This document shows, piece after piece, positions 32,856 to 36,678 of a stretch of 49,751 bases of DNA. The position numbers and the translations under genes were made by a program. The notes beneath the pieces were generated by a model, which had not been told where the DNA came from, ran no database searches, and saw nothing but the letters and a program-made list of their open reading frames with translations. Position 1 is the first letter of the stretch. Each line of letters opens with the position of its first letter. This DNA comes from Nitrospirota bacterium (GTDB lineage Bacteria; Nitrospirota; Thermodesulfovibrionia; Thermodesulfovibrionales; JdFR-88). The stretch covers positions 1-49,751 of the forward strand of contig JAKAJM010000011.1 of the NCBI GenBank assembly GCA_021813765.1, read 5' to 3'.

Positions 32856-34244
32856 CTAATGTATCATTATGTTATCGCTTGCAGGCACCGAAAGGCCCGG
32901 CAATATGCCCGCTGGTGCTCCAAAACCGCTTGAGCTTACCGGGATCACAAGCAGAGCGCCGTTTGTATGGTCGCAAACCACGACATATTTCCCGTCAATA
33001 GTAAATCCGAGCGTTGTTATCTGGCCCAATGTCACGCTTGTGTCGCTGATGCTGTAGGACGGAGCGTAGAGCTGTCCCACCTGCGAAAGCGCTCCGGAAG
33101 CAACCCCCGAAAACATGAGGAGCCCATTGTCTGTGCCGACCACAGCCAGAGTGCCGTCTGGTGAAACCGCCACGGTATTGACTGTGTAGTCCACGCTTGT
33201 GGAATTTGACAGTACCGGGGTGCCGGGCAGTCCGGTCAGTAGATTCACAGTGCCGCTTGTGCTATTTACAATATTAGTGATGACCACGGCACGGCTTGAA
33301 TCTATGGGGCTGATGGCCATGCCGCCTCTGCCGTCAAACTCAGCACTCGAAGTGCCAAGGCTGGGGATGTTTGCGGTCTGATTAAAGTCGCCGGGCTGAG
33401 GAGTACTGGAAGCGATGGAATAGACGGTAAGTCCGTTTGCGCCGCGCGCCAGAAGCACCTTGTCATCATTGGAGATGACGACGGCATTGCGGTAGTCCGG
33501 AATTCCGATGCCGCCCACTATCTGAGGGGTTCCGGAAAGAATGCCGGTAACCAGAACAAGATAGGTGTTATTGTCGAGAGAAACGACCGCCTCATCCCCG
33601 TTGCTGAGAATGGCTACCGAATCGCCGTCTACGCCATAGTTCGTGTTAAGCGTGTTGGCTGCAGACACCGTGCCGTTTTGTACCGAAAAATAATAAAGCT
33701 TATTGTTATAACCATCCATCAGGACACCCTCGGACCCGTCTGGAGTGAGCGCCGCGCCATCAAAATCATTTTCCCCGGAATAGCTTATTGAAGACATTGA
33801 CGGTGTAGACAGCACATTGCCGTTTGAATCATAAATATGCACGATCTGAAGGATGCTGGGAGAGTTTGTGATGGATTGTGCATCATCAGATGGATCGCTG
33901 GGAATAAGGACGAGTCCCTGGTCCCCCACGGAACCGCTGCTTTGCCCGGAAGATGTGGTGCTTCCGGATGTGCCTCCAGATGTGCCTCCAGATGTTTGGG
34001 ATGTAGGAATAAATGGATTGCTAGGGGTGCTGGTAACAGATCCTGAATTGCTGCTGGATGCTCCCGATGCTCCCGATGCTCCCGATGCTCCCGATGCTCC
34101 CGATGCTCCCGATGCTCCCGATGCTCCCGATGCTCCCGATGCTCCGGTTGATCCACTACCGCCCGAGCCCCCACCGCAGCCTGTAAAGCCAATGGCAAAA
34201 ATCATGCAAAAAGCCGGTATTAATATCTTTTTTAAGACTTTCAT
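32856..34244 (-). CDS. Lipoprotein with (GAS)10 linker and beta-propeller-like domain
   Basis: ORF 32856..34343; start MKVLKKILIPAFCMIFAIGFTGCGGG at 34244 with strong RBS AAGGAGGGG; lipobox FTGC; SPDGTLAVVGTDNGLLMFSGVASG-type repeats. Confidence 0.75.
   Translation of the reverse strand: MKVLKKILIPAFCMIFAIGFTGCGGGSGGSGSTGASGASGASGASGASGASGASGASGASGASSSNSGSVTSTPSNPFIPTSQTSGGTSGGTSGSTTSSGQSSGSVGDQGLVLIPSDPSDDAQSITNSPSILQIVHIYDSNGNVLSTPSMSSISYSGENDFDGAALTPDGSEGVLMDGYNNKLYYFSVQNGTVSAANTLNTNYGVDGDSVAILSNGDEAVVSLDNNTYLVLVTGILSGTPQIVGGIGIPDYRNAVVISNDDKVLLARGANGLTVYSIASSTPQPGDFNQTANIPSLGTSSAEFDGRGGMAISPIDSSRAVVITNIVNSTSGTVNLLTGLPGTPVLSNSTSVDYTVNTVAVSPDGTLAVVGTDNGLLMFSGVASGALSQVGQLYAPSYSISDTSVTLGQITTLGFTIDGKYVVVCDHTNGALLVIPVSSSGFGAPAGILPGLSVPASDNIMIH
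34057..34146. repeat. Nonanucleotide tandem repeat, (gatgctccc) x about 10, encoding (GAS)n
   Basis: Ten consecutive gatgctccc units on + strand, last unit ending ccg. Confidence 0.95.
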
Positions 34245-34655: not shown

Positions 34656-36605
34656 CTAGTTAGTCTGGAAGCTGCCTGTCTGGCTTTGCACGGTATTTCC
34701 GGCGTTATCCTGTGCGACCACCTTCCAATAATATGTGGTCTTGCTGGACAACCCGGAGACCGTATAGCTCAATGCACCCGTACTGGGGCTTACGCTTGAA
34801 GCAGGGGAAGAAGACGAGGTCTGCGTGCCGGCGCCCCCTCCACCGCATGATGCCAAAAGCCCGGCAGCCATAACGCCGGCCAGAAGGAGCATGAGCAGCC
34901 TGCGCCTGCGTCTGATGCCCCCGGGGACGACAAGCCCGAACATAAACAGCGCGGCCGCGCCGCCACCCATCGCGTACATGCTGTTTTGCGCGGATGCCAC
35001 CTGTATGGGGCTTGCATCCGAGAAGTCCGGTTTTTTACCGACGTAGAGCGTATACGTAACGGGAGCCGAGTCCTTGGAGGGGCTCCATTGGAACGTGACA
35101 GTGGTGCTGACTGTCTGCCCTTGCGATGGCGTCAGCAACTGGGGCGCCGTTACCTGCCCGGATGAGGTAGTTGATGCTGGTGCGGTTGTTGCAGTGGAAG
35201 CGTTGCTGATTGCAGGTGTCGAACCATATGATGAAGTGGTTGAGGTGGAACCTGTGGTTGTTGAAGTGGAGGCCGTTCCGGAAGTTGACGTTGCCCCCGC
35301 TGTCGATGAGGTCCCTGAAATCATCGATGTTGTTCCTGTAGTTGACGTATAAGTTGTTGTCGTGCCGGTTGTCGGAGTGGATGTTGTTGATGTGGTTGTC
35401 GAAGTCGAAGTCCCGCCCGAGCCAGATGTGGACGATGTTGAGCCTGAGGTTGAAGTCGATGTAGAGATCGATCCTGATGTTGAAGTTGAGGTTGAAGTTG
35501 AGGTTGAAAATTCATATGCCCCGATATCGGGAGGGTTTGCCAGGGGGTTTCCGTTTGCATCATATGTTCTGCCGGACCACGCTGTGCCGGTGCCTATGGC
35601 CGGAGATGAAGATTGCAGGTAAAAATCAAGGGCAGCCGCGTCTGCAAATATTGAAGACGGGCTGGCGTTCAATATGTTTCCTGTCCCCGAGGCATCGGCA
35701 CCCATGGTAGAGGCTGTGGTCAGGTTATAACTTGCAGTAAAGCTTTGGCCCGAGGGATATGAAGCCGCGCCCCCTCCCGGCATATAAAAAATGTTGTCCT
35801 CCACCAGCGCGTTTGTCATGGGCATATAAAGACCAAGCTGCCCTGTATTGTTAGGGTTTGTGGAGGCGAAAGTATTGCCTATTATATAAAGTCCTGTAAC
35901 AGTTGGGTTAGCATGAGAATTATCATATATTTGAATATCCCACCCTCTATCGTTATCATAGGTGACATTGTTTATAACCGTAAGGTTAGAGAATGCACCA
36001 GTAGAACCCGCTTGCCCCTCAAAATCTATTCCATGATCGGCAGAATATCCGTCGCTGCCACCACCTGAATCATGCACAACATTACTATCTACAATTATGT
36101 TAGATGCAAAATCAAAATCTATACCAGCGCATCCATTATTGCCGGTACCGTTTGCACCTACTGGGCCAATGTTATTGCCATAGATGGTAATATCATGAAT
36201 TCCGTCCCTTCCAACAATGCCATCATATGCGATATTTTGCATCCTGAAATTCATTATATTTATGTAACTGGCACTAATAGCCACTGCATAGGAACCACCA
36301 CCTGCATCAATAACAGCACCCCATTTATTTTGTGACTCGAAAGTTATAGGAGCACCGGACGAACCGCTGCGGCTTATGGTAAACGGAGAATAAGTACCGT
36401 TCTCTATAATGACCGAATCACCAGGATTCACAATGCTAGCTGCATAAGATGGCGTACGAAAAGGAGAACTCTGAGAACCGTTGTTGTTGTCGCTTCCCGA
36501 GGTGGAAACATAGTAGGTGGCGGCATTTGCCTCTCCAATAAAGGAGGAAATGCCTAAAACCACTACTGCCAAAAGGAAAATAGGGAGGAAAAAACTCTTC
36601 TTCAT
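34656..36605 (-). CDS. Secreted right-handed parallel beta-helix protein with Ser/Thr linker and Fn3-like domain interrupted by an internal TM/lipobox cassette
   Basis: ORF 34656..36689; start MKKSFFLPIFLLAVVVLGISSFIGEANA at 36605. YYVSTSGSDNNNGSQSSPFRTPSYAASIVNPGDSVIIENGTY; internal MGGGAAALFMFGLVVPGGIRRRRRLLMLLLAGVMAAGLLASCGGGG; C-terminal TYYWKVVAQDNAGNTVQS. Confidence 0.8.
   Translation of the reverse strand: MKKSFFLPIFLLAVVVLGISSFIGEANAATYYVSTSGSDNNNGSQSSPFRTPSYAASIVNPGDSVIIENGTYSPFTISRSGSSGAPITFESQNKWGAVIDAGGGSYAVAISASYINIMNFRMQNIAYDGIVGRDGIHDITIYGNNIGPVGANGTGNNGCAGIDFDFASNIIVDSNVVHDSGGGSDGYSADHGIDFEGQAGSTGAFSNLTVINNVTYDNDRGWDIQIYDNSHANPTVTGLYIIGNTFASTNPNNTGQLGLYMPMTNALVEDNIFYMPGGGAASYPSGQSFTASYNLTTASTMGADASGTGNILNASPSSIFADAAALDFYLQSSSPAIGTGTAWSGRTYDANGNPLANPPDIGAYEFSTSTSTSTSTSGSISTSTSTSGSTSSTSGSGGTSTSTTTSTTSTPTTGTTTTYTSTTGTTSMISGTSSTAGATSTSGTASTSTTTGSTSTTSSYGSTPAISNASTATTAPASTTSSGQVTAPQLLTPSQGQTVSTTVTFQWSPSKDSAPVTYTLYVGKKPDFSDASPIQVASAQNSMYAMGGGAAALFMFGLVVPGGIRRRRRLLMLLLAGVMAAGLLASCGGGGAGTQTSSSSPASSVSPSTGALSYTVSGLSSKTTYYWKVVAQDNAGNTVQSQTGSFQTN
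35160..35512. repeat. Low-complexity Ser/Thr-coding segment
   Basis: STSTSTSTSGSISTSTSTSG...TTTGSTSTTSSYGS, with ttgaggttgaagttgaggttgaa repetition at one end. Confidence 0.85.
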
Positions 36606-36641: not shown

Positions 36642-36678
36642 AAAAAAGGCCTGTTTCCCTCGAAAGGGAAACAGGCCT
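36642..36678 (-). terminator. Intrinsic terminator in the 5' leader of the beta-helix gene
   Basis: Minus strand AGGCCTGTTTCCCTTTCGAGGGAAACAGGCCTTTTTT: near-perfect long stem followed by T-run, between riboswitch and start codon. Confidence 0.9.

Follow-up and report, generated by a model that had tools for sequence, protein, structure and literature searches.

The P0001 locus

The window, a stretch of 49,751 nucleotides from a Nitrospirota genome (GCA_021813765.1, contig JAKAJM010000011.1), encodes a predicted secreted protein, P0001, in whose C-terminal tail two hydrophobic segments, an arginine cluster and a cysteine lie between the parts of an Fn3 domain (Table 1). The earlier note had placed this cassette at positions 34845–34980 of a beta-helix protein; translation of the open reading frame gives exactly the sequence quoted there, and those coordinates bracket the cassette, which runs from M543 (34979) to the codon of Cys587. 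Close to the end of the passenger lies a weak match to choice-of-anchor Q (23.5 bits against a cut-off of 25).

Third-position GC content (GC3) is 0.40 in the passenger, 0.58 in the linker and 0.69–0.74 in the Fn3 halves and cassette, and the higher values in the tail would fit its acquisition as one unit. The neighboring gene (32856–34244, minus strand) encodes an ordinary lipoprotein whose start reads CGGGSGG and which contains a long GAS (Gly-Ala-Ser) repeat.

Table 1. Features of the P0001 gene and its leader, in window coordinates
Feature	Position	Strand	Basis
c-di-GMP-I-GGC riboswitch aptamer (RF03167), 5' leader of P0001	36724–36800	minus	Rfam, 61.5 bits (gathering threshold 59)
Strong hairpin with T run, terminator-like, probable expression platform	36642–36678	minus	Sequence and fold
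CDS of P0001	34656–36605	minus	649 aa; coordinates include the stop codon
N-terminal Sec-type signal peptide, aa 1–29	36519–36605	minus	Sequence, by eye
Secreted passenger, right-handed beta-helix type	35508–36518	minus	Weak PelN and choice_anch_Q matches, and sequence
Ser/Thr-rich linker, aa 367–485	35151–35507	minus	Sequence
Fn3 half 1, aa 486–542, strands A-B-C-C'	34980–35150	minus	Pfam scoring and AlphaFold
TM1, about aa 547–563	34917–34967	minus	Hydropathy over 55 homologues
Arg5 loop, aa 565–569, predicted cytoplasmic	34899–34913	minus	Loop charge in 55 homologues
TM2 / lipoprotein-type h-region, aa 570–586, ending LLAS	34848–34898	minus	Predicted helix and lipobox statistics
Cys587 (TGC), predicted lipidation and LspA cleavage site	34845–34847	minus	Invariant in 55 sequences
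Gly/Ser/Thr-rich linker, aa 588–610	34776–34844	minus	Resembles linker of ordinary lipoproteins
Fn3 half 2, aa 611–649, strands E-F-G, protein C-terminus	34659–34775	minus	Pfam scoring and AlphaFold

An Fn3 domain split by the cassette

The regions flanking the cassette are one Fn3-type domain, as the earlier note had supposed. When the cassette was deleted in silico and the flanks joined, they matched Pfam fn3 at 29.4 bits (cut-off 25) and Pur_ac_phosph_N at 32.4 bits (cut-off 30), whereas no Fn3-type model reached its cut-off on the tail with the cassette in place. Intact Fn3 relatives have merely a short loop at the cassette position.

AlphaFold, run on the tail as one continuous chain with 55 homologous sequences supplied, placed strands from both halves in a single sandwich in which all strands are present (lettered in Table 1 according to our reading of strand order). 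Mean pLDDT was 78 overall and 89–98 across nearly all of both Fn3 halves, with low confidence for TM1 (about 50) and for the linker; a helix was predicted at tail residues 86–104, just ahead of Cys106 (Cys587 of the full protein). Because the tail was modeled as a single chain, the prediction shows that the halves are compatible rather than that two chains pair. Foldseek searches against the PDB retrieved Ig/Fn3 domains with probabilities of 0.96–1.00 but with E-values above 0.001, probably because the long insert disturbs the superposition.

A putative internal lipoprotein signal with an invariant cysteine

Homologues with the cassette in the same position were found in several phyla, and 55 tails were aligned. 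Some copies were detected with a pattern demanding a cysteine; the aligned tails came instead from tblastn hits that extend across the Fn3 halves, so that pattern does not build in the invariance of the cysteine. It is present in 55/55 tails and is the sole invariant column of the cassette.

The context of this residue supports the possible lipoprotein signal that the earlier note had read ahead of it. Position −1 is S, A or G in 53/55 tails (the few exceptions being N and Q), position −3 is L, I, A, F, V or S, and a glycine follows the cysteine in 47. All 55 tails carry at least three Lys/Arg residues, and in every one a hydrophobic stretch of 14–20 residues (mode 17) separates the last basic residue from the cysteine. 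The cassette of P0001 thus has the parts of an SPII signal, namely a basic n-region, an h-region, a lipobox and an invariant cysteine, and the source genome encodes both Lgt and LspA. It shares these elements and the Gly/Ser linker with ordinary SPII (Lgt/LspA) signals, which are N-terminal, whereas here the signal is internal, is preceded by a TM and lies about 60 residues from the C-terminus. Among 17 N-terminal lipoprotein-like starts identified by pattern in the same loci, the cysteine is followed by Gly in 10 and by Ser in 3, and a CGGG-Ser/Thr run is common; the neighboring gene at 32856–34244 provides one of these starts.

Across the 55 homologues, the net charge of the loop between the membrane segments averages +3.6 and never falls below +2, and the outer flanks are near neutral (+0.1 before TM1 and −0.8 after the cysteine), the pattern that a hairpin with its two ends on the outside should show. 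Mean pairwise identity is 24% in the membrane segments and 35% and 50% in the two Fn3 halves, and TM1 is short in some copies. Neither Gly-Gly nor any other motif before TM1 is conserved across the alignment.

Distribution and passengers

Searching 101 genomes gave matches in 24, and the tails from strong matches carry the cassette in the same place. Further genomes extend the range to Nitrospirota (including Thermodesulfovibrionia), Geobacteraceae and other Desulfuromonadales, SAR324, Gammaproteobacteria, Troglogloeales, and Deferribacteres. Of 246 Nitrospirota genomes screened with a profile at an E-value of 1e-10, 23 contained the Fn3-type tail, with up to eight matches per genome. Matches in Bacteroidota mostly covered the second Fn3 half alone, and those inspected were intact Fn3 domains without a cassette.

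The tails follow different passengers, including the beta-helix type, a GDSL lipase, a subtilase, a rhodanese-domain protein, and beta-propellers of the SBBP, PD40, and FG-GAP types. Most complete cassette-bearing open reading frames examined begin with a signal-peptide-like stretch. Judged by sequence, the cassette is a C-terminal module shared by unrelated passengers, its conservation ruling out chance.

Related architectures in other Ig-like scaffolds

The closest known family is NCBIfam NF058595 (invert_tail, “lipo-invert putative C-terminal anchoring domain”; cut-off 37), against which P0001 scored 33.4 bits as a whole protein, 30.3 bits as the tail alone, and 37.6 bits within a 696-residue open frame, which makes it a borderline match. 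At an E-value of 0.01 or better, 51 of the 55 Fn3-type tails matched this model. Its clear members (L120–L124, one Nitrospirota family) resemble P0001 in being C-terminal and in the order of their parts: half of a beta domain, TM1, an Arg cluster, TM2, a lipobox cysteine, a linker and the remaining strands. They differ in splitting another Ig-like domain (TTLTITT...TPAGT..V.VTA), where P0001 splits Fn3, and no Fn3 model matched the flanks of the member L120.

A third scaffold was found in one locus (L039), where the cassette lies within a choice-of-anchor D domain. Its joined halves matched a HYDIN-type Ig model over the full length, while the sequence with the cassette in place covers only the first 76 of its 100 positions. 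This is the sole such case found; a search of 246 genomes with the L039-type form returned no second clear one. The recurrence in different Ig folds, always with a few strands after the cysteine, matches the prediction of complementation.

The earlier note had not known this arrangement to be described, and a search of the accessible literature found no paper on it or on lipo-invert; NF058595, however, models the same architecture on another Ig-like scaffold. The kind is therefore already modeled by NCBI, apparently without publication, and what appears to be new is the Fn3-scaffold variant with its wider range. Our results suggest that the Fn3 form is distributed more broadly than the single curated model implies.

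SEA and GAIN domains are likewise cut internally into two chains that stay paired non-covalently. They cleave themselves by autoproteolysis, whereas P0001 would be cut by LspA and would gain a lipid.

A proposed anchoring mechanism

We consider it probable that the tail is a split Ig-fold C-terminal anchoring module, which combines internal lipoprotein processing with Fn3 complementation. P0001 would be exported by means of its N-terminal signal peptide until TM1 halts in the inner membrane with the Arg loop on the cytoplasmic side; TM2, resembling a lipoprotein signal, would turn the chain outward again. Lgt would then lipidate Cys587 and LspA would cleave before it, so that the last 63 residues would become an ordinary lipoprotein. 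Strands E-F-G of this lipidated chain would pair with strands A-B-C-C' of the passenger, rebuilding the Fn3 domain, and the lipid would hold the passenger non-covalently at its C-terminal end. With such a module the cell can probably attach a lipid to a large exported protein at its distal end.

We infer cleavage, lipidation, and strand pairing in the cell from the anatomy of the tail, its conservation, its predicted fold, and the presence of Lgt and LspA. The putative two-chain, non-covalent state is plausible. In favor of the mechanism we count the invariant cysteine in its lipobox-like setting within an otherwise drifting cassette, the charge pattern of the hairpin, the similarity to N-terminal lipoprotein starts in the same loci, the short loop of intact Fn3 relatives, the unrelated passengers, the recurrence in two other Ig-like scaffolds, the joint fold, and the two lipoprotein enzymes; against it stand the non-standard −1 residues (N, Q) of a few copies, a TM1 that is poorly modeled and sometimes short, and the continuous chain supplied to AlphaFold, a set-up that favors joined halves. 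If TM1 were never cleaved, moreover, the hairpin would already hold the passenger and the lipid would look redundant.

Should the proposed anchoring be correct, bacteria could lipidate a completed secreted protein at its C-terminus without a dedicated sorting enzyme, relying on Lgt, LspA and domain complementation. This would explain how numerous surface-type proteins of little-studied phyla are anchored, and the module would serve as a split-domain tether ready for use. It is possible, though short of probable, that the tails represent a general anchoring mechanism of Gram-negative bacteria that has so far gone undescribed, in which the ordinary N-terminal lipoprotein machinery adds a lipid at the C-terminus of large secreted proteins through an internal signal in an Ig-fold domain, with two chains holding each other, in at least three Ig-like scaffolds.

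Alternatively, TM1, the Arg loop, and TM2 may form a two-helix anchor in a single uncleaved chain, with the cysteine serving another role. The hairpin topology fits the charge pattern, and in the single-chain AlphaFold model the Fn3 domain closes over the hairpin. A simple anchor, however, needs no conserved cysteine, and the invariant residue with its lipobox-like context and lipoprotein-type linker makes this reading unlikely.

Relation to C-terminal sorting signals

The first part of the cassette shares a Gly-rich stretch, a TM, and an Arg cluster with the GlyGly-CTERM signals processed by rhombosortase (PMC3237569, PMC6219818). In P0001, by contrast, the cassette is internal, Gly-Gly is unconserved, and rhombosortase falls under its cut-off; GlyGly-CTERM and PEP-CTERM signals occupy the extreme C-terminus, whereas here TM2, the cysteine, and half an Fn3 domain follow. 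MYXO-CTERM, the substrate signal of myxosortase, is similar in its C-terminal-end TM and cytoplasmic Arg cluster, and a lipid has been proposed on the invariant cysteine of the secreted protein (PMC11980579). Its cysteine precedes a single TM, lacks a defined lipobox, and has nothing beyond the Arg cluster, while that of P0001 comes after a second TM and is followed by half a domain.

This resemblance leaves room for a double cut, in which a dedicated GlyGly/CTERM-type protease would act before TM1 and LspA before the cysteine. TM1 with the Arg cluster looks like a CTERM tail, to the extent of a weak match to MYXO-CTERM (TIGR03901; 15.4 bits, below the cut-off of 20), and reaching the outer membrane would require TM1 to be removed. 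We nevertheless regard a double cut as quite unlikely, since no Gly-Gly or other motif is conserved before TM1 and the candidate enzymes are not in evidence: rhombosortase was below its cut-off in 41 of 41 genomes, though rhomboid-like matches occur; exosortase (PF09721) had no match in the source genome, whose assembly is 85% complete; and CPBP proteases were absent from two cassette-bearing genomes of high completeness (G008, 100%, with four Fn3-type tails; G010, 97%).

The cut by a GlyGly-type sorting protease that the earlier note had put forward is thus not borne out, nor did its suggested candidates, exosortase and CPBP proteases, turn up in the genomes just named. With none of the three tested enzymes fitting, a dedicated protease for TM1 removal was rejected. 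A general rhomboid or some other protease may act on TM1.

Genomic context

The leader of P0001, with a z-score of −3.9, shows a 14-bp hairpin in its predicted fold. Scanning of other loci revealed five further riboswitches of the c-di-GMP-I class (L062, L024 with two, L089, and L052), each directly upstream of a cassette gene by our reading of coordinates and strand. In the source genus, an SBBP-type cassette paralogue adjoins the type II secretion system (T2SS) cluster gspC-D-E-F (L204:5690–11407, L205, L206); GspD occurs in most relatives whether or not they carry the cassette. The riboswitches and the T2SS neighborhood weakly point to a surface or biofilm role.

These hints bear on a further alternative, in which LspA cleavage and lipidation take place and TM1 is kept on the passenger, giving a doubly held periplasmic anchor in the inner membrane instead of a surface tether. 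The failure to find a dedicated enzyme for TM1 removal agrees with it. The upstream riboswitches and, in one genus, the paralogue beside the T2SS cluster are weak signs of surface location or export that speak against retention, which we judge very unlikely.

An assembly or gene-fusion artefact has practically no chance of explaining the cassette: the sequences are metagenome assemblies and frameshifts or chimeras affect a few copies, but intact copies recur at the same position in many independent genomes and phyla.

Natural two-gene versions were also rejected, as the apparently split copies (L196 and L199) are frameshifts in draft assemblies; the second part of L196 has no start codon. The idea that the lipoprotein half is translated on its own from an internal start was discarded, the alignment showing no Met conserved ahead of the hydrophobic stretch. 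In a further locus (L198), the second Fn3 half and lipobox are fused in frame to an AMP-ligase-like open reading frame, probably in a chimeric contig.

A phospholipase D (PLD)-like gene was considered as encoding a general processing enzyme and rejected, since it accompanies the SBBP-type paralogue only and not P0001. The gene lies 3' of that paralogue and is translationally coupled (L204:1100–4428, L205, L206–L212). Its product is a membrane-anchored protein of about 228 residues with an HKD motif that appears degenerate by eye, and the gene is conserved beside the SBBP-type paralogue throughout the family of the source genome.
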